64,000 bases of DNA from a bacterium (GTDB lineage: Bacteria; Cyanobacteriota; Vampirovibrionia; Gastranaerophilales; Gastranaerophilaceae): positions 1-64,000 of the forward strand of contig JAGBXP010000035.1 of assembly GCA_017629215.1 (NCBI GenBank), given 5' to 3'. Each line of letters starts with the position of its first letter. Positions within the stretch are counted from its first letter, which is position 1. This document shows positions 4,173-56,795 of this stretch, one piece after another. The translations under genes were made by a program, and so were the position numbers. The notes below the pieces were generated by a model. That model saw nothing but the letters and a program-made list of their open reading frames with translations, ran no database searches and was not told the origin of the DNA.

Positions 4173-6056
4173 ATGGTAGTTGCAAATTCATTTGAGGAAG
4201 TTATATCACTTATCAAGGATCGGTTGGATATAGTAGATGTTGTATCACAATATGTTGTGCTGAAAAAATCTGGAGCAAACTATTGGGGTATCTGTCCATT
4301 TCATAATGATTCAAAACCATCAATGTCAGTTAGTCCCTCAAAAGGTATATTCAAATGCTTTTCTTGTGGAACAGGTGGAGATGCTCTGAATTTTTTAGTG
4401 CGTATACAAAATCGTGAATATAAGGATGTTATTTTTGAACTTGCTGAAAAATTTGGAATTGAGCTTCCTAAAAAATTTTCATCCACTAATGAAACAAAGA
4501 TTCAAAAAACAGAAATGCTTAAAGCCTGCGAAAAAGCTGCAAAGTTTTATAATTCTCAATTAAAGATAGCTACTGATGCCAATAAAGCTAATTCATACCT
4601 GCAATCTAGAGAAATAACAGAAGATATTATTCAAAAATTTACAATTGGTTGGGCTCCTGATAAATTCGATTTACTTTACAAAGAGCTTTCCAAAGAATTT
4701 AAAGATGAAATCTTAGAAAAAGCTGGTCTGATTATTAAATCAAATAACGGAAAATGGATTGATAGGTTTAGAAATCGTTTAATGATTCCTATCCAAAACG
4801 AAAATGGAGATTTTGTTGCTTTTGGAGGAAGAACATTGGAAAAAGATCCTAAAACTGCAAAATATATAAACACTTCTGAAACATTAATCTATAACAAAAG
4901 TAAAATTTTATATGGATTAAATTCTGCAAAAGAAGCAATAAAAAAAGAAGATGCAGTAATTGTAATGGAAGGATATTTTGATGTAATTTCTGCACATGCT
5001 AATGGTATAGAAAATGCAGTTGCTTCTTGCGGTACAGCAATGACAGCTGAACATGTTAAGCTATTATCTCGTTATAGTAAATCCCGTAGAATTTTTCTTT
5101 CCTTTGATACAGATGCTGCTGGTATAAAAGCAACACAAAGAGGTAGTGAAGTTATAAAAGAAACCCTAGCAACTTTAGGATGTGTTAAACAATTTGACGA
5201 AAGTCATATTTCTTCTTCTGTGGATAACAAATACGCTTGTGAAATAAGAGTTGTATCACCTCCTCATGGTAAAGATCCTGATGAATTTATACGCACAATG
5301 GGTGGTGATGCTTTTAAAGCTCATATAAGCGAAGCTCCCTTGCTAATAGACTTTTTATTAAATAATATTCTTAGAGAAAAAAATTCAGCAAAAACTCCTC
5401 AAGAAAAAGCAGAATTAGTTACACAAATTATTGAAATTTTAAAAGATATAAATAATAAAATTATTCAATCAGAATACGTTAAATTAGTTGCGTCTACCTT
5501 AGAAATTAATGAAAACGCAATGCTTAAAGAATTAAATAAATTTAATAACGTAGAAGTCCCTCAAATAAACATCTCAAAAAAAGTTGTAACAAATTCTTCA
5601 CAATTCGAAATAAAAGCGCAAAAAAATTTATTGAGCGTTTTTTTATCAAACAACAGTTCAAATAATTACCAAAAGTTAAACGAATTGTTGCCTCAAGATA
5701 TAATTCAAGACGAAACATTAATAATTGTAAAAAATACAATTGACAAATTGTCTTGTACAGTAAATAATATTAGCGAATTAACTAAACAATTATATACTGA
5801 ATTCATTGAGGATAATAATCTAACACAAATATTGACAGATTTGATCGAAATGTCAGAAGCCTTTAATAACCTACAGGAAGATGATTTAAGACAAACTGTT
5901 CAAGAAAACATAGCAAGACTTAAAAGGTACTATCATGAATGCGAATCAGAAAAACTTCGCCAACAGTACCGAGAAGTAAATGATAATGATTTAGAAGCAT
6001 TGAAAATTCAAATGCAACTAAGAGACAAAATAAAGTTAAGAACTGGAGATAAATAA
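4173..6056 (+). CDS. dnaG: DNA primase
   Basis: This 627-aa protein makes RNA primers at the replication fork. The N-terminal CHC2 zinc finger is complete: C41 and H44 in CPFH, C62 and C65 in CFSCG. The TOPRIM catalytic core follows, with the acidic EGYFD motif near residue 266 and FDTDAAG near 310. The C-terminal third is the variable DnaB-helicase-interaction region. Length is normal for the family. Its stop codon overlaps the start of rpoD (TAATG), reproducing the classic dnaG-rpoD pairing but without rpsU. A TGcTAAAAT extended -10 sits only a few bases upstream of the ATG, so the leader may be extremely short. Confidence 0.95.
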
Positions 6057-7144
6057 TGACCCAAAAAAGAAATTCAAGATCATCAGTAATTAGTATAGAA
6101 GATGAAAATATAGATTTATTAGACTTTGATACAGACAAAGATGAAGATGGTGAGGATTATATTGAAACAGATTTAGGCACTGATAATATAGAAGATATTA
6201 TCCAAACATCTAAGTTGAGTGGTGTTAAAAGTGAAGATTTTTACATGATGGATTCTTCTGATTCTTCTGATGCAGAATTAGAAACTGAAATTCCAAAAGG
6301 TCTTGCTGTTGAAGATCCAGTACGTCTATATCTTAGAGAAATTGGTCGTATAAAACTTTTATCAACAAGCGAAGAGATTGAATTAGCTCGTAAGATTATT
6401 CAAGGTGGTGCGCCTGGAGCTATTGCTAAACGTAAACTTGTTCAAGCAAATCTAAGACTTGTTGTAAGTATTGCTAAAAAATATGTTGGTAGAGGCATGC
6501 TTTTCCTTGATCTTATTCAGGAAGGTAATTTAGGTCTAATAAGAGCAGCTGAGAAGTTTGACCACGAAAGAGGGTTTAAATTCTCAACTTATGCAACTTG
6601 GTGGATTAGACAAGCTATTACAAGAGCTATCGCTGACCAAGCTAGAACAATTCGTATACCAGTTCACATGGTAGAAACAATTAACAAGCTTAAAAAAGTT
6701 ACTCGTAGATTAGCACAAGAACTTTCAAGAAAACCAACCGAAGAAGAATTAGCTGTTGAAATGGGAGTTTCTATTTCTAAGCTAAGAGAAATCGTTAAAA
6801 TCGCTCAAGAACCTTTATCATTAGAAACTCCTATTGGTAAGGAAGAAGATTCAAGATTAGGTGATTTTATTGAAGATAAAGAAGCTGATGCTCCTATCAA
6901 GACTGTTGCATCTGAACTTCTAAGAGAAGATCTAGCTGAAGTCCTTTGCACACTTTCACCTCGTGAAAGAGATGTATTAAGATTACGTTTCGGTATGGAC
7001 GACGGACGTCAAAGAACATTAGAAGAAGTTGGTCAACTCTTCGGTGTTACTCGTGAACGTATCAGACAAATCGAAGCTAAAGCTTTAAGAAAGCTAAGAC
7101 ATCCAAATAGAAGCAAACGCTTAAGAGAATATGTTGAAAATTAA
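6056..7144 (+). CDS. rpoD: Primary RNA polymerase sigma factor RpoD/SigA
   Basis: A 362-aa group 1 sigma-70 factor. After an acidic N-terminal extension (about 1-80) come region 1.2 ([10 protein letters not shown]), regions 2.1-2.4 ([12 protein letters not shown], then [18 protein letters not shown] for -10 melting), region 3, and region 4.2 with the -35 helix-turn-helix ([18 protein letters not shown]). It is translationally coupled to dnaG by a one-base overlap. A strong terminator follows. A second sigma-70 protein with the same regions lies at 22472-23476; this one is taken as primary because of its dnaG context. Confidence 0.95.
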
Positions 7145-9323: not shown

Positions 9324-10019
9324 ATGCAAATAAACGGTGGCGTAAGATTTTGTGAACAAGGAATAAAAGCTTCTATTAGAGCTATGCACGTTCAAACAGA
9401 AGTCCTTGGTATGATTAACGAAAACATTGTAGGCTTTGATAAAGTTGGTTATCAAAGAAAAGAACCAGTTGTTTCTTCTTTTACAGAATACATTGGTATA
9501 CACGGCTTATCGCAAACTGTTGATGATAAAGTTGGAAGAATTATGGTATCTAGAAATCCATTAGATATAAGCTTGGCAAATAAAGGATATTTTCAAGTCC
9601 AAACTCCAGAGGGAGTAAAACTTACACGTGATGGTAGGTTTAAACTAGATCAATTTGGAAACTTGCTTAATCTTGAGGATCATCCGGTTCTTTCTGACGC
9701 AGGCATGCCTGTAAAATTGCCAATTGTGCCAGATAATCCAGGAGAAGTTGTTATAAATTCAAAAGGTAAAGTGAGTGTATATGATAAAAACATCGGAGGA
9801 CTTATTGAAGCTGGACATTTAGGAATTGTTGACTCTAATGGATTAGCAGTTTTAAATCCTGATGTTAAACAAGGATATAACGAATATTCAAACGTCCTTA
9901 TACAAAACGAATTTCTTGCAGTAAAACCTGTTGTTAGAAATTTTGAAGCTAACAGACAAATTTTCTTAATCGAAAGTTCCAATTTACAAAAGGTTATAAG
10001 CCAATTAGGTTTAAACTAA
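9324..10019 (+). CDS. Flagellar basal-body rod protein, FlgF/FlgG family
   Basis: A 231-aa protein of the rod/hook superfamily. The N-terminal helix (to about residue 45) ends in the family pattern N.vg(F/Y)DKVGYQ. A beta-rich middle follows with the FlgF/G hallmark NKGYFQVQTPEG...LTRDGRFKLDQ.G. The C-terminal helix is shortened but keeps NFEANRQIF, equivalent to the usual 'yEaNqk'. At 231 residues it is shorter than typical FlgG (about 260). It is first of four consecutive rod genes. Distinguishing FlgF from FlgG needs a tree. Confidence 0.8.
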   Translation: MQINGGVRFCEQGIKASIRAMHVQTEVLGMINENIVGFDKVGYQRKEPVVSSFTEYIGIHGLSQTVDDKVGRIMVSRNPLDISLANKGYFQVQTPEGVKLTRDGRFKLDQFGNLLNLEDHPVLSDAGMPVKLPIVPDNPGEVVINSKGKVSVYDKNIGGLIEAGHLGIVDSNGLAVLNPDVKQGYNEYSNVLIQNEFLAVKPVVRNFEANRQIFLIESSNLQKVISQLGLN

Positions 10020-10034
10020 TAGGAGGAAGATATT

Positions 10035-10748
10035 ATGTATAATATGCAAGCAGTAATAAGAAAAAATATAAATAATTCAACTATACAATTTGAAAAATTA
10101 GGCTATATTTCTAATAATATAGCAAATTTTAATACAATTGGTTATAAAACTGTTAGCTTTGAGCAAATTCTCAGAGAGGACGGATATGTTGATGGAGCGA
10201 TTAAAACAAATATTAAAAATGGATCTATTAGAATTAGTGGTAGAGATTTAGATATTGCAATCGACGGAGCTGGTTATATTCCTGTTGTATCAGAGAATGG
10301 AGAAATACAATATACAAGAGATGGTTCATTAACTCGCAGTGAAGGAGGGTTTCTGACTACAACAGATGGCTGGATGGTTGGTGATGGAATTAAAGTCCCT
10401 GCTAATTCATATAAGCTAGAAATTAAATCTAATGGTGATGTCTATAATTATGATAATGCAGGTTCTTTGCCAGAAAAAATAGGTACAATACCGATTGTAC
10501 AATTTGATTGTCCAGAAGAACTTGAACAAGGACATAATAATAAAATGATTGCTACAGAAACATCTGGAGCTCCAGTTATTGTTAAAAAAAATCAAAACAT
10601 AAAACAACATGCTCTTGAAGCTTCTAACGCAAACATGTATGACGAATTAAATGATTTGATGAGACTAAATACATCAATGATTGCAAGTATGAACTTAATG
10701 CGTGTAGCAGATGATATGTATAATAAAGCTATAAATATCAGAGAATAA
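10035..10748 (+). CDS. Flagellar basal-body rod protein, FlgF/FlgG family (second copy)
   Basis: A 237-aa paralogue of the preceding gene, 15 nt downstream with a strong AGGAGGAAG ribosome site. The N-terminal helix carries NNIANFNTIGYKT, the rod-family 'NiAN..T.GyK' box. The beta domain shows AIDGAGYIPV and YTRDGSLTRSEGG. The C-terminal helix (about 195-237, M-rich) lacks the canonical yEaNqk motif. Such FlgF/FlgG pairs build the proximal and distal rod across the periplasm. Together with flgB and flgC it forms a compact rod operon. Confidence 0.8.
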   Translation: MYNMQAVIRKNINNSTIQFEKLGYISNNIANFNTIGYKTVSFEQILREDGYVDGAIKTNIKNGSIRISGRDLDIAIDGAGYIPVVSENGEIQYTRDGSLTRSEGGFLTTTDGWMVGDGIKVPANSYKLEIKSNGDVYNYDNAGSLPEKIGTIPIVQFDCPEELEQGHNNKMIATETSGAPVIVKKNQNIKQHALEASNANMYDELNDLMRLNTSMIASMNLMRVADDMYNKAINIRE

Positions 10749-10772
10749 ATTTAACTAAAAAGAGGACTAAAA

Positions 10773-11123
10773 ATGACATTCACAGCACTTGATTCTATGG
10801 GTAAAACTTCATTAATGCTTGATTTGATTTCTCAAAAGCAAAGGGCATTAGGTTCTAACGTCGCAAATGTTGATACACCTGGGTACGTTAGACGTGATAT
10901 TGATTTTTCTCAATATTTAGGAAGCATGAATAGTCCTTTGGAAACTAAACTTTCTACAGCACTCGGTCCATCTGGTGTTATTGAGGATAGACGAGGAAAA
11001 GAAATCGATATTGCTGATGAATTAGCAGAGCTTCAAAAAAATTCATTAATGTATACAATGGCAACTAGAAGAATGTCAAATATAATTACAGAAATGAAAA
11101 CAGTATTAAACGTAGGTAAATAG
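10773..11123 (+). CDS. flgB: Flagellar basal-body rod protein FlgB
   Basis: The 116-aa product fits the short FlgB class. It starts FTALDSMGK, has the N-terminal rod box SNVANVDTPGYVRRDIDF (about 29-46), a short middle, and a C-terminal helix with SLMYTMATRRMSNII. FlgB forms the innermost proximal rod. It is third in the operon, 24 nt after the FlgF/G gene and 23 nt before flgC, with an AAGAGGA ribosome site. The neighbour identities make the assignment secure. Confidence 0.88.
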   Translation: MTFTALDSMGKTSLMLDLISQKQRALGSNVANVDTPGYVRRDIDFSQYLGSMNSPLETKLSTALGPSGVIEDRRGKEIDIADELAELQKNSLMYTMATRRMSNIITEMKTVLNVGK

Positions 11124-11146
11124 AAATAAATTGAAAGGTTGATAAT

Positions 11147-11590
11147 ATGAGTATTCTTGAATCAATGAATATAGGTTCTAATGCTTTGAGAGCGCATGGT
11201 CTAAGACTTGATATCCATGCTAAAAATATTGCTAATATTGATACTCCAAATTATGTAAGAAGAATACCTGTTTTAAACGCATCAGAAGATATTTCGTTTC
11301 ATGGATTAATGAATACAATGAAAAATGATGTCTTTGGAGTTGGGACTCTACCTTATCTTCAAGGAGGTGTAACATTCAATGGTTGTGTAGAAGATCCAAC
11401 TATTGGAGAAAGAATATACTCTCCAGGTCATCCTGACGCTGATGCAAATGGATATATAAGAGCATCAAATGTAAATGCTATGGTTGACATGGCAGATGCC
11501 ATTATGGCTCAAAGAGCTTATGAAGCAAACTTAGCATTAATAAACATATCTAGAGCAATGGCAAATAAAGCAACTGAAATAGGAAGATAA
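11147..11590 (+). CDS. flgC: Flagellar basal-body rod protein FlgC
   Basis: A 147-aa protein with the FlgC layout: N-terminal helix with the box KNIANIDTPNYVRR (about 26-39), a central loop carrying the FlgC-typical YSPGHPDADANGYI (about 97-110), then NAMVDMADAIMAQRAYEANL and a terminal helix. FlgC is a proximal rod subunit. The gene is followed by a strong terminator that closes the rod operon. The order F/G-F/G-B-C, with neither fliE nor flgD/E, differs from the common flgBC-fliE arrangement. Confidence 0.92.
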   Translation: MSILESMNIGSNALRAHGLRLDIHAKNIANIDTPNYVRRIPVLNASEDISFHGLMNTMKNDVFGVGTLPYLQGGVTFNGCVEDPTIGERIYSPGHPDADANGYIRASNVNAMVDMADAIMAQRAYEANLALINISRAMANKATEIGR

Positions 11591-16346: not shown

Positions 16347-16922
16347 TTGAGACCTAATTTAAGTGTAAGCTATAATGTTAATTTTCAAGCAAACTGGTAT
16401 GATAAATTTTTTAAACGCATACCTAATAAAGACGTTGTTAATGCTAGCCAGTTTAATGAATTTGGGAAAAAACTTGCTAGCCCTCATTGGAACAGATTAG
16501 CTTTGGGAGTAGCTGGTATCGCAACTTATCCGTTTTGGGATTATTATAACCCTAAAATTGATAGAGATACAGCAAAAGCATCTACAATTAGGACTTCTTC
16601 AAAAATCGTAACTTGCACAGCTACTGGATTTGTAATAAGAGGACTTTGTTATAAGCTTACAGAAAAATATATGCACGGTTCTACAATGGAAGGGTCAACA
16701 TTATTAACTCCAAAATCCATATTAGAAGAAGTAAATGCTGATTTAAGAAATAATAAGTTAAAACTACATAAAAACACTTTTTCAACAGTTATTGCATTGT
16801 TTGTAATGCTTTTTACAAACTTTTTAATTGATGCACCTTTAACAACCATTGTTACAAATAAGTTTTTAAGATTAGCAAATTTGGAGAATAAAGCGAGGGC
16901 TAAAAATGAAAGAGTTATTTAA
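16347..16922 (+). CDS. Uncharacterised membrane protein, first of a two-gene module
   Basis: The start is taken as the TTG at 16347, with AGAGG upstream, giving 191 aa; an earlier TTG at 16329 adds six residues. The N-terminus contains NVNFQA, then a conserved-looking block (HWNRLALGVAGIATYPFWD, followed by NPKIDRDTAKAS and RTSSKIVTC), a central hydrophobic segment, and a C-terminal transmembrane helix (about 150-170). I recall similar protein pairs only from Gastranaerophilales-type genomes and know of no function. The stop overlaps the next gene by 17 nt, so the two are translated together. Confidence 0.55.
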   Translation: MRPNLSVSYNVNFQANWYDKFFKRIPNKDVVNASQFNEFGKKLASPHWNRLALGVAGIATYPFWDYYNPKIDRDTAKASTIRTSSKIVTCTATGFVIRGLCYKLTEKYMHGSTMEGSTLLTPKSILEEVNADLRNNKLKLHKNTFSTVIALFVMLFTNFLIDAPLTTIVTNKFLRLANLENKARAKNERVI

Positions 16923-19540: not shown

Positions 19541-19687
19541 ATATTATTAAGTTTAAGATTTGTAACACTCAATTTTTCCAATTATTACTTGTTTATAGTT
19601 GTTTTTTATTTATTTGTTTAGCATTTATGAGCAAAAAAATTTTTTCAAATGTTTTAAATAATATATAAGTGTGTTGTGGAGGTGCAA

Positions 19688-20326
19688 ATGGTTTATCAGA
19701 TAAATGGCTCGAATGGAATTTATGATAATCAAATAAAGGATAGTTCTGTAAAATATGGTAGAAATGCTGTAAATAACAATATTAAACATATAGAAGCTCC
19801 ATTAGTTAACGATAATCGTGCAGTACCACCGATTTTCAATTTTTCTCCTTCATTAGAAAATCATGAACAAAATTTTTCAGATTTAGAACTATATCTTAAT
19901 AAAAATGACGAATACTTAAATTCATTACCACCTTTAGAATATGAATATCGATATCTTCCTAATTTCACACAAAATAATCTTGATAAAAAAGCATTATTAG
20001 CAGTTGCTTACGAAGAATTTGGACAAAAAACAGAAATGTCGATTGAAGAATTTGAGGATAAATGCCTTTTTGACGATACTCAAACAGCTGAACCATTGGA
20101 TATTAATAATGATAAAAAAATAGACATTGGTGAATATAGTGCAAATATACTCGCTACTGATATTCTAAGCAAAGGTACAACAAATCCGATGGAAGCAGAT
20201 GGTGTTATTAATAACAAAGGCATGAATGCAATTGTTGATTATTCTAAAAAAATTAATGCAGATGCAGCGTCAAAACTTTATAAAAATATTTATACCACTT
20301 ACAATCTAAACTCAGAAGAGATTTAA
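19688..20326 (+). CDS. Hypothetical protein with EF-hand-like loop
   Basis: The start is set at ATG 19688 because GGAGG lies 5 nt upstream; a GTG at 19676 overlaps that site. The 212-aa soluble protein is Asn-rich and disordered for the first 70 residues, then helical. Around residues 140-151 it has DINNDKKIDIGE, which matches an EF-hand calcium loop (D-x-N-x-D-x-x-I-D-x-x-E). A second degenerate loop (EADGVINNKGMN) follows some 27 residues later. It could bind calcium as an EF-hand pair or act as a dockerin-like adhesion module. There is no signal peptide. Confidence 0.55.
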   Translation: MVYQINGSNGIYDNQIKDSSVKYGRNAVNNNIKHIEAPLVNDNRAVPPIFNFSPSLENHEQNFSDLELYLNKNDEYLNSLPPLEYEYRYLPNFTQNNLDKKALLAVAYEEFGQKTEMSIEEFEDKCLFDDTQTAEPLDINNDKKIDIGEYSANILATDILSKGTTNPMEADGVINNKGMNAIVDYSKKINADAASKLYKNIYTTYNLNSEEI

Positions 20327-20718: not shown

Positions 20719-22482
20719 TTAAGAAAGCTCTCTGATTTTTTCATGAGCCATTTCGTTATCTGGGAAAATTGATACCACTTTTTCAAAATACTTCAATGCT
20801 AAATCAATATTTTTTAGCATTTCATAACATTTAGCGATTTCCATTAACACTGAAATATTTTGAGGGTGTTTTGTTTCAAGATTTTGAAATATATTTAAAG
20901 CTTTTTCATATTCACCTAGCTCAAAATATGTTAAAGCTAATGTATTTTGAGTTTCGACATCTGGATTTTGTTCGACAGCTCTTATTAAATACCTTTTTGC
21001 TTCTTCAAACTCATTACGTGCAAATAAAATTCTACCCATGCAAAATTGAACATATTCGTGATTAGGTTCTATAGATATTGCTTTTGAAATATATTTATAA
21101 GCTTCGTCAAGCTGGTTTAAAACAAGTTTATTTAGAGCCATAAATGTTAATGCGATAGCGCTATTTGGATTTACCTCTAAAGCCTCATTATAATATCTAT
21201 CAGCCTCTAAGTTTTTGGAAGTAGAATATAGGAAATTCCCATATTCAAAAAGAATTTCAAAATCATTTGGTTCAAGTTTCAAGGCTGTCTTAAACTCATC
21301 TTCGGCGTAATCAAATAATCGCTTATTAAGATAAATGATTCCCAAATCTTTATGAGCTTTAGCCATTTCGGGATTCATGCGAATAACTTTTTTAAGCATT
21401 TTTTCTGCAGTATCAGAATCGCATAAACTTGATGATAAAATTGCATACTGATGCATTATATCAGCATTAATATGACCTTTTAAAAGGATATTATCATAAA
21501 TTTCTTTTGCTTTCGTCAGCTGATTAGACTTAATATATAAACTTGCTAATTTTTGAGCAGGAAGTAAGAATTTTGGATTTATATATATTAATTCTTCTAA
21601 TAATTTAATTGCAGTCTGAATATTACCTAATGCTTCATAGCAAATCGCAATATTGTACTTATAATTTTCTTTATTAGGACATAATAACGCTAATTGTGTA
21701 TAATGTTTTAATGCGTCATTAAACAAACCTAACTTAACTTCGGAAATAGCTAGTGCTAGTAAAAAGGATTCGTCCTCTGTAATATCAATAGCTTTTTTAA
21801 AATATTCTATAGCTTTTTGATGATTTTGTAATATTTGATATGCAGAACCTATATTATAATAAGTCATTGGAGCGTTTGGATTTATCTCTATTGCTTTTTC
21901 GTAAGTTTGTATTGCGAGCAGGTTATTCCCAGTTGCCATGTAGCAAGTACCAAGGCTATTTAACGTGCCTAAATTTTCAGGCTTTTTGCTTAAAGCTATC
22001 TCGAGTGGCGCTATAGCCTTTTGAAACTCTTTAAGTTTCATATAGCAAGTTCCTATTATAAAATCAAAAATAAAATCAGCATCAAATGTTTTTGCTCTTT
22101 CAGAAAATTCAATAGCTAAATCTATTTCATCCAATTTCATTAAAATAATACATAAACTTGTATAAGCGTCTTTATATTCACTGCGTAATTCTATAACACG
22201 CAAATAAGCATTTTTTGCAGATATAAAATCGCCTAAATTTTCATAAGATTTTGCCAAATAGAACCAAGACGTAGCGTCTTCTAATTCAAATTTTACAATC
22301 GTTTCAAAAGCTTTTTTTGCTTCCATCCACATATCAAGATTTACATAAGTCAAACCTGCAAGTTTAAGTAATTCTACATTATCAGGAGTTTCTTCCAAAG
22401 CCTTATCTATAAGAACTTTTGCGTTGTCAAATTGTTTACTACCAACTAACTCATTAATTTCATTTATCATTTTATGCTCCAA
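20719..22482 (-). CDS. Large TPR-repeat protein
   Basis: A 587-aa protein composed almost entirely of about 16 tetratricopeptide repeats in register, for example [20 protein letters not shown] and [19 protein letters not shown]. It has no signal peptide or membrane segment. Its start overlaps the end of the sigma factor gene by 11 nt, making it last in a tightly packed nadA-rlmB-sigma-TPR operon. A solenoid of this size probably docks several partners; coupling to a sigma factor hints at a regulatory or assembly role, but that is inference. Confidence 0.85.
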
Positions 22483-23476
22483 AATAATTTTTTAGCCCAG
22501 ATGTCATATTTTTATTTTTACAAAGCTTTTTTAATTTAGAAATCGCTCTATTCTCTATTTGTCGAATTCTTTCTCTTGAAACACCGTATATTGTTCCTAT
22601 TTCATCTAATGTTTTCTTTTGTCCATCATTATTTAATCCGAACCTAAGGATTAAAACATCACGTTCTTTTTGACTCAATTGTTCAAGCATGCTCGTAATA
22701 TCATCAAGCAAACTTTCTTGTGATACTAAAGACTCTGGTGCTAAAGTTGACTCATCTACAATATAATCAATAATTTTATTTGCGTCATCTTTTTGACCAG
22801 TCGGAGTATCAATACTAATTGTAGATTGTGTAGATTTTATGATAGAAGTCAGCTTAGAAACTGAAATTCCCATTTTATCTGCAATTTCTTGTTTAACAGG
22901 TATTCTACCTAATTCTGTAGTCAAATCCATTGTCGCTTTTTTGATTTTATTAATAGACTCAATTAAGTGAATAGGTAATCTAATTATTCGAGCTTTATCA
23001 GCAATAGCTCTTGTGATAGACTGTTGTATCCACCATGTTGCATAGGTTGAAAACTTGTATCCTTTTGTATAATCAAATTTTTCAGTTGCTTTAATTAAAC
23101 CCATATTACCTTCTTGAATTAAATCAAGAAAAGATAAGCCACGACCAATATATTTTTTTGCAATACTTACAACAAGCCTTAAATTTGCATTTATCAATAC
23201 TTTTCTTGCAAACTGGCTTTGAGTCTCGTAAATTTTTTTCGCAACTTCTAATTCTTCTTCACTAGAAAGAAGAGGTATTTTACCAATTTGCTGTAAATAA
23301 ATTCTTACTGAGTCATCCGAATTAATGGAATTTAAACTCTCTTGGGTTTTTGGCTCTTCTATTGAAATGTTATCTTCGTCATCTAAATCGTCAACAGGCT
23401 CAATGTTATTAAAATCAACACCCTCATCTGAAATATCATCGACCATTATATTTAATTTTTCTTTTTGTTTAACCAT
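22472..23476 (-). CDS. Second RpoD-like sigma-70 factor (group 1/2)
   Basis: A 334-aa sigma-70 with a 60-residue acidic N-terminus, region 1.2 ([14 protein letters not shown]), full region 2 ([19 protein letters not shown], then [18 protein letters not shown]), region 3, and region 4 with [17 protein letters not shown]. It differs from the dnaG-linked sigma at several positions in region 2.4 (WIQQS instead of WIRQA), as expected for a group 2 paralogue used in stress or stationary phase. It sits 2 nt downstream of rlmB and overlaps the TPR gene, so it is co-expressed with both. Confidence 0.9.
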
Positions 23477-54066: not shown

Positions 54067-56172
54067 TTATGTGAAATACTCGGGTTTATCTAGTGTGTTT
54101 GTAGCTTTCATAACTCCTATACGACCAGATTTTTTTTGTATATTTGTAAAGATTGAACTAATAGCAAATGGGATTAAAACAATTAATGATAAAATAGGAA
54201 CACCACCAATTATTAGAGTATTTTTTAATGTTTTACCAGCTTTTCCACTTTCTTGTATTTGTTTTCTAATATTCATTAACATTTCATCTTGGACATTTTC
54301 TGTATATTTATTAGCCTTTTTTAATCTATTAATTTCTCTTGCTCTTTTATTAGTAATAAGATTTAAAATATCTTTTCCAAGATTTATTAAATAATTTGAG
54401 AACTTATTTTTTTTGACTTCATTTCTTATAACAGTTTCTATATTATCATTTAACTGTGGCAAAATTTCTAGTAGATGTGTGGTAAGCTTTGATATTGGTT
54501 CTCTAGTTTCTTTATTTTGCATTAGTTTTTCTAAGGCTTCAGCTCTCTCATTGCTATTTATAAACTGATTTATTAATTTTTTAATTGACTTATCTTTTTT
54601 GCTTGCTTCTTGTAATTCATTTAATGATGTTCTTATAACAGAATTTTTGTCTAATGCAAAATTAGCTATCAATTTTCCATATTTTGGAATATTTAATTTA
54701 CCTTCTAAAAATTGATATGTACCATAATAAAATAGAAGTGTTGGTCCTAGGCTAAATGGCACAGAAAGAACTGTTTGTAGAATATTTGTAACAGCTTCCA
54801 TATTTTCTGAATATGATTGCGACATTTCATCTATTTCTTTAAATGCAAAAAAAGTTTTTTCTTTTAGTTCTTCAGCTTCTTTAATTTGCTCTGGAGATTT
54901 TTCCATCTTCTTCAATTCTGCAAATATTTTAGCTTCTTTTTTTGCTTCAGTTTTTTTGTATTTATTAAACTCTTTTAAATCTTTAAAATAAGTTTTTATG
55001 AATTTTAAATTATAATAGATTTTTTTGAATGGACTAACTTTTTTATAATCATTTTCAACTTCACCAGCAGATTTTAATTCATTATCATTGAAATAGACAA
55101 TAGGAGATAGATCTTTTTTTAACTCTTCTTGAGCTTTATAACGCCCAACTCGTGCTGCATTTTTTTGCGAGCTTGTACCTGCAATAATTAATATCATTGA
55201 AAAGGTTAATGTTGCAAGTTGCCCAAGGCTTTTATTCAATGTAACATTTTTTGGAGAAGAAAAAGCTTTTATAAGTTTATTTACTACATACATTAATGGC
55301 ATAGTAAGAAGTAATTCTAGCATGCTTAATGTCTGAAAAGCGTTTTCAGTGTTTTCTGAATAATCTTCTGCTTTATTATTGATTATTCTAGATGAGTGTA
55401 AAATAAGTTCTTTATTTTCATTTGCTATTTGGATTTCTTCAGGCGTGTAATTCTTGTTTAATTTATCTTGAAATTCTTTATTTATACCCAGAGTTTGTTC
55501 TTTTTTATATTCTTTATAATCTTTTGAAAAATTGAGTATTTGCTTTATAGATTCTTTAAAAGATTGATTAGTATTTGCATCTGTGTTTTTTTTCACTTTA
55601 TCTTTTTTATTTAGCTTTGATTTATTTTTTGTTTTTTTATCAGTTTCGCTTGCCTCTGCTTTTTCTACAATTTCCGTAGCTTCTTTTATTTGCTCTGGAG
55701 TATAAGATACAAAACTATTAATATTATTTAAATCTTCTTTCATTGCTTTATAACGGCCTAATCTAGATGCTTTTACTTGCATTTTTGCTTCAATAGGAGC
55801 TAAAAGTAAAGGTAATATAAATGCAGGTATAAAGGATAAAGATGTATATATAATTGCTTTTGAAGTATTTTTGACTTTAACTCCCATAATTACAAAAGGT
55901 AACATGAGTGCAGTAGACGCAAGACCTATAGTATTTTGCATAGCCATTTCAATATTTTCTGCATAATTTTCAGAACGATTATCCATTATTTTTATAGCAT
56001 TAATAATTGAATTAGCTTTTCCTCGTATATTTTCTTCTCTTAATTTATATTCAGGATTATTTTGGATTAATTTAGATTTTTGCTTATTTTTTATATACAA
56101 ATTTTCAGAATATTTATCATAAACATTCCAATTTTTAGAAACATCTTTAACTGTTGCAATAATATCTGCCAT
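54067..56172 (-). CDS. Large uncharacterised membrane protein with three internal repeats
   Basis: A 701-aa protein with three repeats of roughly 180-250 residues. Each repeat opens with a helix ending in the motif YSENxE (NYAENIEMAMQN near 66, DYSENTENAFQT near 268, SYSENMEAVTN near 455). Two hydrophobic helices follow, then a closing motif around GRYKA (SRLGRYKAM, ARVGRYKAQ, GRIGVMKA). The linkers are Lys-rich coiled coils. Six or more membrane helices are expected. I recognise no family or enzyme motif; it may be a lineage-specific envelope scaffold. The upstream minus-strand gene is 32 nt away. Confidence 0.6.
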   Translation of the reverse strand: MADIIATVKDVSKNWNVYDKYSENLYIKNKQKSKLIQNNPEYKLREENIRGKANSIINAIKIMDNRSENYAENIEMAMQNTIGLASTALMLPFVIMGVKVKNTSKAIIYTSLSFIPAFILPLLLAPIEAKMQVKASRLGRYKAMKEDLNNINSFVSYTPEQIKEATEIVEKAEASETDKKTKNKSKLNKKDKVKKNTDANTNQSFKESIKQILNFSKDYKEYKKEQTLGINKEFQDKLNKNYTPEEIQIANENKELILHSSRIINNKAEDYSENTENAFQTLSMLELLLTMPLMYVVNKLIKAFSSPKNVTLNKSLGQLATLTFSMILIIAGTSSQKNAARVGRYKAQEELKKDLSPIVYFNDNELKSAGEVENDYKKVSPFKKIYYNLKFIKTYFKDLKEFNKYKKTEAKKEAKIFAELKKMEKSPEQIKEAEELKEKTFFAFKEIDEMSQSYSENMEAVTNILQTVLSVPFSLGPTLLFYYGTYQFLEGKLNIPKYGKLIANFALDKNSVIRTSLNELQEASKKDKSIKKLINQFINSNERAEALEKLMQNKETREPISKLTTHLLEILPQLNDNIETVIRNEVKKNKFSNYLINLGKDILNLITNKRAREINRLKKANKYTENVQDEMLMNIRKQIQESGKAGKTLKNTLIIGGVPILSLIVLIPFAISSIFTNIQKKSGRIGVMKATNTLDKPEYFT

Positions 56173-56204
56173 ATCTATACCAAAACCTAAAAAATTTTTT
56201 TTTG

Positions 56205-56423
56205 CTATTCATTAGCTTCTGCTTGTTTCTTTTGTTTGAGATAAAGTAATGGGAACGGTAATATTGCAAGTATTCCAGCAAGAGTAAGTAATAGAGCTTT
56301 ATTTTTTTTACCAAAAGAAATTGTATCCTGTTTTGAACTTTGATTATTCATTTTGTTGTTTTTGACTTTGTAATTATTATTTGCATAATAACCTCTAATA
56401 GATGATATTTTCATGAATGCCAC
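56205..56423 (-). CDS. Small membrane protein with shared N-terminal signature
   Basis: A 72-aa protein; the second Met (MKISSIRGYYANNN) is also a plausible start. An Asn/Lys-rich soluble stretch ends in TISFGKK, followed by one transmembrane helix (about 47-63) and a short charged tail. The N-terminus resembles that of the neighbouring 93-aa protein (MRVSAINQNYYASSR). Probably co-transcribed with the 701-aa protein downstream. Function unknown. Confidence 0.55.
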   Translation of the reverse strand: MAFMKISSIRGYYANNNYKVKNNKMNNQSSKQDTISFGKKNKALLLTLAGILAILPFPLLYLKQKKQAEANE

Positions 56424-56477
56424 CTCATATTAATTCCTATAATATTCTAAAACCTGAAATAATTTTTTTGCTTGAAT

Positions 56478-56515
56478 AAAAAAGTAGGAGAGAATTAATC
56501 TCTCCTACTTTTTTT
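56478..56515. terminator. Terminator of the glycine-zipper gene
   Basis: A perfect 12-bp stem AAGTAGGAGAGA/TCTCTCCTACTT (56482-56493 and 56499-56510) has A- and T-runs on both sides. It terminates the 93-aa gene on the minus strand and may insulate the next gene. Confidence 0.85.
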
Positions 56516-56795
56516 ATAATTTTTCTTCTATCTCATGTCCAATTTTTCCACCAATTAATAACCCTCCAGCATATACAGCTAAAATAGCAAGAGGTCCGGC
56601 TCCTGGTATTAAAAATGCCGCTGCGATAGTGGTAGCTGCAGCTCCTGTAGCACCTCCCAAAGATGCACCGACAATATCTTTAAATGCAGGATTATAAGTT
56701 TTGCAGGTGCCTGGTTTTCCTGTTTTTGATTGTTTGTTTAAATTTTGCATTCTTGAGCTTGCATAATAATTTTGGTTAATAGCACTAACTCTCAT
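56514..56795 (-). CDS. Glycine-zipper small membrane protein with shared N-terminal signature
   Basis: A 93-aa protein. Residues 1-40 are polar (MRVSAINQNYYASSR, then Lys/Thr-rich to NPAFKD). Residues 43-88 are a hydrophobic Gly/Ala-rich region with GGATGAAATT and GGLLIGGKIG, typical of glycine-zipper membrane segments. Such proteins insert as helical hairpins or oligomers. The N-terminal signature is shared with the 72-aa protein. The ribosome site AGGAGAA is good. Confidence 0.55.
   Translation of the reverse strand: MRVSAINQNYYASSRMQNLNKQSKTGKPGTCKTYNPAFKDIVGASLGGATGAAATTIAAAFLIPGAGPLAILAVYAGGLLIGGKIGHEIEEKL

Follow-up and report, generated by a model that had tools for sequence, protein, structure and literature searches.

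A two-part N-terminal tag on unrelated proteins of Gastranaerophilaceae-type bacteria suggests an undescribed address label

The window, the whole 64,000-nucleotide stretch of DNA analysed here, comes from a Gastranaerophilales genome of 1.80 Mb in 54 contigs and contains two neighbouring small genes on the minus strand. The ORF at 56205..56414 (good ribosome-binding site, GAGGTGG) encodes a 69-aa protein that begins MKISSIRGYYANNN, runs to TISFGKK and then forms one hydrophobic segment. The 93-aa protein encoded at 56514..56795 (likewise a good ribosome-binding site, AGGAG) begins MRVSAINQNYYASS, runs to YNPAFKD and continues into a Gly/Ala-rich hydrophobic stretch that is glycine-zipper-like. 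The beginning of each protein constitutes a first box, MKISSIR (56394..56414, minus strand) and MRVSAIN (56775..56795, minus strand), respectively. A second box is formed by the aromatic phrase, which is divergent in the 69-aa protein (ISFGK, 56307..56321, minus strand) and reads NPAFKD in the 93-aa protein (56676..56693, minus strand). The similar start followed by a polar stretch, an aromatic phrase and a hydrophobic segment, as given in a preliminary description of this locus, was confirmed for both ORFs. Its common pattern M-[KR]-[IV]-S-[AS]-I-x-YYA captures the likeness but not the spacing, since the ORFs contain I-x2-YYA and I-x3-YYA, so that YYA occupies residues 9-11 of one protein and 10-12 of its neighbour. 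In a log-odds model of the tag, trained on 56 tags from targeted loci other than this one and used with a cut-off of 8, the 69-aa protein scores 10.1 and the 93-aa protein 25.8. A third protein of the preliminary description (16347..16922, plus strand) has the second box, NVNFQA at bases 16374-16391, but not the full tag, as its score of -1.2 lies below the cut-off of 8.

Neither small protein matched an NCBIfam family, and the 69-aa protein had no Pfam match. Homologs of the 93-aa protein occur in 14 of the 37 genomes searched, the window's own genome counted, and no relative was found in viral contigs. With merely 25-37% identity to the window protein, all 15 fetched sequences keep the tag, starting with M-[KR]-[IV]-x-x-[IV] and containing a Phe box before the hydrophobic part. 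The glycine-zipper family PF13441 was matched by 2 of 48 tagged proteins (best 1.4e-4), and no glycine-zipper family reached 1e-3 in a Pfam scan of 31 proteins including both window proteins. An AlphaFold model of the 93-aa protein alone has a mean pLDDT of 60.1, too low to interpret. The neighbouring 701-aa protein (54067..56172, minus strand) contains hydrophobic segments, belongs to no NCBIfam family and lacks the tag, and a 212-aa gene on the plus strand (19688-20326) has no scoring tag.

The tag is bipartite, consisting of box 1, M-[KRN]-[IV]-x-x-[IV]-[NSQ], a variable, polar and acid-poor linker, and box 2, [PVI]-[NSA]-F-[KQ]-G, after which the cargo follows. This anatomy was derived from 81 curated tags, kept from 105 pattern matches of which 24 were removed by eye as false positives; the 81 still include doubtful members, e.g. 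L036, L040 and L089. Successive residues are M, K/R/N, I/V, S/N/Q, S/A/P, I/V and N/S in box 1, and N, P/V/I, N/S/A, F, K/Q and G in box 2. Positions 4, 5, 7, F-1 and F-2 are conserved too, though they are absent from the search pattern. The Phe of box 2 is found at residue 9-54 (median 27) and is followed by K in 38, Q in 18 and N in 7 of the 81 tags, with G at F+2 in 59. The linker consists of 18.4% N, 7.8% Q, 9.8% S, 7.1% Y and 5.4% D+E, compared with 7.5%, 2.9%, 5.8%, 4.3% and 13.3%, respectively, in the rest of the same proteins.

The view of the signature as a mark of small membrane proteins does not hold, since 48 of the 81 curated proteins have no predicted TM segment and the cargos include soluble enzymes. 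A TM segment begins fewer than 30 residues after the Phe in 28 proteins and further on in five, numbers that are inflated by a glycine-rich family. What stands of the proposal of an undescribed targeting or processing signal is its general reading, as a modular tag that operates at the protein level on the N-termini of unrelated cargos. The preliminary description had missed that the linker varies, that the tag is spread throughout the family and that an upstream DNA element is shared. The tag itself is polar, unlike a Sec signal peptide with its hydrophobic core near the N-terminus and its cleavage site. It does not conform to a double-glycine or RiPP leader either: its motif is F-x-G, with the G in 59 of 81, and whole domains come after it. 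A Sec-signal-peptide-like stretch with an A-x-A-type end is located behind some tags (L137 14299, L149 19525 and L131 10001), one of them in an EF-hand protein.

Enrichment of the signature at N-termini, the absence of which had been set beforehand as refuting it, was found when the log-odds model was applied to stretches picked regardless of the tag. In the window and parts of G000, G013 and G020, 9 of 821 N-termini scored at least 8, against 0 of 3633 internal methionines. The corresponding numbers were 4 of 443 against 0 of 2000 in parts of G037, G040, G047, G050, G059, G062, G074 and G079, where flagellin was absent in the five genomes checked for it, and 20 of 1335 against 0 of 6184 in the flanks of loci encoding DUF2023 proteins. 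Pooled over this unselected DNA of the window's family (f1, presumably Gastranaerophilaceae), 33 of 2599 N-termini reached the cut-off versus 0 of 11,817 internal methionines. The other families of the same order (f2-f7) yielded 1 of 444 N-termini and 0 of 1787 internal methionines. A regular-expression test found 7 tags in 821 N-termini, at least one of which (L079) is doubtful, compared with a mean of 0.48 after shuffling and with none among 3232 internal methionines. A strict DNA pattern had 26 matches versus 3 in the reversed control in 74 f1 genomes, and 2 versus 3 in 73 genomes from other orders of the class. Such strict and loose DNA patterns run over genomes are good for finding examples and poor for counting, and the loose totals were not used because ordinary genes of most genomes were also caught, e.g. 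those starting MNVSIITTAET... or MKIGVVGLGLIGGSIFKG. The shared start is confirmed as real and as more widespread than the two window ORFs, and the tag is concentrated in one family of Gastranaerophilales, where about 1% of proteins carry it.

The 127 tagged proteins belong to 69 cargo families without similarity beyond the tag (E 1e-3), the largest of which (n=28) is DUF2023. Pfam matches of the cargos comprise CheR, DUF2023, PHP, amidohydrolase, AAA, protein kinase, nucleotidyl transferase and radical SAM, as well as EF-hand, tyrosine phosphatase and glycine-zipper; each was found in few of the 48 or 31 scanned proteins, and several are weak. No Pfam match at 1e-3 was obtained for 13 of 20 tagged proteins scanned singly in two sets of ten. 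The Pfam matches of CheR and DUF2023 begin at profile position 1-2 and set in 12-18 residues past the box 2 Phe, which corresponds to residue 38/39 in DUF2023 and 35-37 in CheR. The alignment to the solved DUF2023 structure 2guk begins at query residue 34. When a DUF2023 protein with the tag was modelled with AlphaFold from 38 orthologs, the tag was a coil with pLDDT values of 53, 51 and 66 in ten-residue blocks, and the domain had a pLDDT of about 90 over most of its length; the first 28 or so residues are therefore predicted to be disordered. In the amidohydrolases, the tag is joined directly to the apparent first strand (MKVQN..NFGGKIIDSHAHVG). The tag is an add-on module on otherwise unrelated proteins.

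That cargo domains begin right behind box 2, and that the amidohydrolase tag leads straight into what looks like a first strand, would also be expected of a leader removed by cleavage behind box 2 to release the mature protein. Such processing is nevertheless very unlikely, considering that no residue is invariant at any cut site: F+1 is most often K, Q or N, G occupies F+2 in 59 of the 81 tags, and in DUF2023 this second position is mostly S, A or G.

Protein-level constraint on the tag was examined in DUF2023. From 80 fetched loci, 78 were recognised and 73 encode at least 25 residues before the core; three untagged proteins were left out, resulting in 70 orthologs, the starts of which were picked by ribosome-binding site. 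Untagged orthologs (L217, L218 and L220) come from families f2 and f3, and L269, L270 and L272 resemble them. Among the 70 orthologs, I/V occupies position 3 in 67 and I/V/L position 6 in 66, and K/R is found at position 2 in only 38. Nine orthologs have no Phe between residue 9 and the domain; the other 61 have one. One comparison of DUF2023 orthologs was biased because starts had been chosen by best tag score; the fair numbers are these counts, with starts picked by ribosome-binding site, and the share of loci reaching the score cut-off given below. The linker cannot be aligned among orthologs and drifts while the boxes persist. Box 2 is looser in DUF2023, as indicated by the 26 of 78 loci that reach a tag score of at least 8; V-Y-R-G replaces it in some orthologs, and the second residue after the last Phe is S, A, G, E or another residue, mostly S, A or G. 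With one gene per family, codons of box residues are used broadly as in the genome, the exception being V at position 6 (GTA in 16 of 21). This ordinary codon use indicates selection on the protein and a repeat of protein rather than of DNA. According to PMC10434189, DUF2023 of Bacteroidetes is a flavodoxin-linked, iron-stress protein; a crude P-loop pattern detected a flavodoxin beside DUF2023 in 0 of the 78 loci.

These data bear on the possibility that the tag has no function, either because 5' ends were copied by duplication or recombination, or because K, I and N codons are common wherever gene starts are rich in AT. With a GC content of about 0.34 the genes are AT-rich, the polar residues are of low complexity and the tagged genes are partly clustered, although the clustering is modest, with five close pairs against a permutation mean of 1.1 and a maximum of 6 in 2000. 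A tag without function is still highly improbable in view of its complete absence at the cut-off from 11,817 internal methionines of the same proteins, the conservation of box positions outside the search pattern, the genome-like codons of the boxes, and the retention of the boxes by DUF2023 orthologs that lose the linker. Adjacent pairs of tagged genes with unrelated or diverged cargos are frequent (L008, L010, L083, L090, L192 and, in the window, 56205-56795).

New in this analysis is an upstream DNA element, TAGCAAAAAAATTTTTTACGnGTTTT, that is common to many tagged genes and to genes starting with a shortened tag (M..SFKG). It spans 26 bp (TAGCAAAAAAATTTTTTnnGnGTTTT) and mostly begins 30-79 bp before the ATG. 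In the window, a copy that was itself used in the matrix, AAGCAAAAAAATTATTTCAGGTTTTA (56448..56473, minus strand; score 18.4), begins 59 bp upstream of the 69-aa gene's ATG. A second copy, TAGCAAAAAAAAATTTTTTAGGTTTT (56182..56207, minus strand; score 20.3), is located 35 bp before the 701-aa gene and shares bases with the stop codon that ends the 69-aa gene, and GAGCAAAAAAATTTTTTCAAATGTTT (19629..19654, plus strand; score 17.0) precedes the 212-aa gene. No element with a score of at least 11 was found upstream of the 93-aa gene. Thus, tag and element are incompletely coupled: the 93-aa gene and DUF2023 genes are tagged but lack a good element, and the 701-aa gene is untagged but preceded by an element.

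The matrix for the element draws on the upstream regions of 36 representatives of the 69 families, that of the window's 69-aa gene among them, and the rate in tagged genes is therefore partly circular; fair tests are provided by untagged genes, the reversed control and a split test. A score of at least 14 was reached by 25 of 127 tagged genes, 74 of 4001 untagged genes and 9 of 1500 sequences of the reversed control. Many of the untagged element genes contain the short tag form at their very start (MNISFKG, MQISFKG, MKVSFTG, MNDLSFKS and MIDSINSINFKG), while others look like housekeeping genes by eye and are probably chance matches. An F-core in the first 60 residues was present in 19 of 34 genes with an element score of at least 20 versus 304 of 3776 genes below 8. 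With genes reaching the tag cut-off excluded, the numbers were 18 of 47 (element at least 16) versus 255 of 3693. With data-driven motifs derived from one half of the families, the element turned up in 4-7 of the 35 held-out families (0.7 expected) in five splits out of six; the sixth failed outright, and in one of the five successes (split 0) reversed sequences were nearly as good (3). Elements scoring at least 20 numbered 21 versus 2 reversed in 2.46 Mb of f1 DNA, and 1 versus 0 reversed in 0.39 Mb of f2-f7 DNA.

The shared upstream element suggests that many tagged genes are co-regulated, as a gene set that is switched on together. An alternative sigma factor could read the element, and no fixed -10 box was detected downstream of it. 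By sequence, the window encodes two RpoD-like sigma factors (6056-7144 and 22472-23476). The upstream words TTGACA and AAGTTAG are enriched by gene and were rejected as an effect of the many DUF2023 copies, because AAGTTAG is present in only 2 of 69 families.

Gastranaerophilales are non-photosynthetic gut relatives of cyanobacteria that are common in animal and human guts. To our knowledge, they have hardly been cultured, and much of their proteome is without assigned function. The presence of the same two-part tag on many unrelated proteins suggests an undescribed address label, and the literature on Gastranaerophilales or on such tags generally, of which coverage was partial, yielded no description of it. 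From the bipartite anatomy, N-terminal enrichment, protein-level constraint, add-on nature, taxonomic restriction and upstream element, we infer, with a probability of roughly 0.5, that Gastranaerophilaceae-type bacteria have a tag for docking or sorting that is read in the cytoplasm. The linker between its two anchors, M-[KR]-[IV]-x-x-[IV] and x-F-[KQ]-G, is polar, acid-poor, flexible and free in length. The tag would be read as protein, most likely by one lineage-specific receptor. This putative receptor would bind both anchors while the linker loops out, and about 1% of proteins, including enzymes, AAA proteins, kinase-like proteins and small membrane proteins, would be gathered or routed to one place. 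Many of their genes would also be co-regulated through the 26-bp element.

A docking or sorting role fits a tag that is disordered, detachable, basic and acid-poor and that is common to soluble enzymes and membrane proteins. According to the positive-inside rule, a basic segment before a TM segment places the N-terminus in the cytoplasm, and a cytoplasmic N-terminus is consistent with the basic, acid-poor tag preceding TM segments. Counting against docking, the freedom of the linker, with the Phe anywhere between residues 9 and 54, is unusual for a single two-site receptor. The loose box 2 in DUF2023, the incomplete coupling of tag and element, and the modest clustering of tagged genes also speak against it. 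A single destination for all tagged proteins is doubtful, because Sec-like segments follow some tags (L137 14299 and L149 19525).

The N-terminal place, the disordered polar tail, the unrelated cargos and the co-regulation would equally suit a regulated N-degron recognised by an AAA protease, for instance ClpXP or Lon. The Met-basic-hydrophobic start likewise resembles that of the ClpX N-motif 2, which differs from the tag in having neither a second box nor a free linker. We know of no N-degron with a conserved second box, here up to about 50 residues off, many tagged proteins are membrane proteins and no tie of the tag to a protease was found, making a degron quite unlikely. Cargo peptides of encapsulins and microcompartments resemble the tag as short terminal docking peptides with a flexible linker on unrelated enzymes. 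This parallel was rejected, as 15 of 15 genomes lack a shell protein of either kind: the encapsulin shell PF04454 was found in 0 of 15 genomes (control matched in 3 of 14 named genomes) and the microcompartment shell PF00936 in 0 of 15 (control matched in 2 of 14). The ESPR of large autotransporters is also an N-terminal extension, and a Sec-like segment comes directly after the tag in a few proteins; its sequence is unrelated to the tag, however, and most tagged cargos are without a TM-like segment. The PEXEL and RxLR host-targeting tags of eukaryotic parasites are short N-terminal tags on many lineage-specific proteins, but they sit behind a signal peptide, whereas the Gastranaerophilales tag is located at the very N-terminus.

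Type III signals are acid-poor, disordered and N/S/Q-rich with I/V at position 3, and hrp or PIP boxes provide a common cis element ahead of type III genes. Signals for type III secretion and flagellar export are likewise N-terminal and found on unrelated cargos, but they lack a shared bipartite motif, and no connection of the tag to export genes other than co-occurrence was found. All 79 genomes searched within the order encode the FlhA homolog FHIPEP, of which up to three classes occur, and FliP is present in 15 of 15. Flagellin is absent from 12 of 15 genomes, and each flagellin-less genome examined for FliP and rod domains contains one FliP and 2-4 rod-domain proteins. The two 15-genome sets are nearly alike, the FliP/rod set containing G027 and G031 where the flagellin/shell set contains G041 and G061; genomes common to both include G000, G099 and G091. 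PMC4040986 reports complete flagellar gene sets in only three of nine Gastranaerophilales genomes and a subset in the rest, which fits the non-flagellar apparatus seen here. Beside true flagellar genes, the window's genome contains a second, non-flagellar FliE-FliF-(unknown)-FliH-FlhA cluster (G000:C49, L143 9325-15496), and those relatives without flagellin that were examined for it retain a FliE-FliF-FliH-FlhA-type cluster, e.g. L145 5158-11136.

With such an apparatus at hand, the tag could be a type III-like export signal and the tagged proteins substrates that leave N-terminus first. Its composition and the I/V at position 3 are type III-signal-like, the cargo list is effector-like (kinase-like, phosphatase-like, methyltransferase, membrane peptides), and FliE, FliF and FliH beside the second FlhA, together with FliP and the rod-domain proteins of flagellin-less genomes, would provide the machine. 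Export is nonetheless unlikely. The apparatus is order-wide (79/79), whereas the tag is found mainly in one family (1/444 in f2-f7), with untagged DUF2023 in others. Tags ahead of Sec-like segments misfit, and no element scoring at least 14 leads apparatus genes in 13 loci with apparatus clusters, five of which have none at all. The flavodoxin-linked iron-stress protein that DUF2023 represents in Bacteroidetes (PMC10434189) would be an unlikely effector. A tie of the tag to the non-flagellar apparatus is possible and is unsupported on account of these differences in range, the missing element in the loci examined and the nature of DUF2023.

In a more tentative extension of the docking or sorting reading, an undescribed sorting route may exist in which the two-box tag, borne by dozens of unrelated proteins in each cell, is read by its own cytoplasmic receptor, which may be linked to the non-flagellar type III-like apparatus or to a free-standing FlhA-C homolog. 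A dedicated regulator would switch on much of the set via the TAGC-A6/7-T6-ACGnGTTTT element, like effector sets of other host-associated bacteria. The tag would then hint at a machine for sorting or export in the branch next to Cyanobacteria, where none has yet been sought. A sequence-readable tag with a matching upstream element would provide a first functional grouping of unknown proteins per genome. The free-standing FlhA-C protein is a candidate tag receptor. A third FHIPEP homolog (L149 9223-10701, 492 aa) matches the cytoplasmic C-terminal part of FlhA alone (profile 321-655) and has a different N-terminal part; such homologs are widespread in the order as low-scoring FHIPEP matches. 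The same flagellin-less genome encodes a 379-aa protein (L149 830-1969) starting MGMAASQARFLGLTARKTNVEYEGQ, with an axial-flagellar-like N-terminus by eye, which is a possible substrate of the second apparatus. The window itself contains FlgG/FlgF-, FlgB- and FlgC-like rod genes (9324-11590), which may belong to the second apparatus because their sizes match the genes of non-flagellated relatives and not the other rod genes of the genome.
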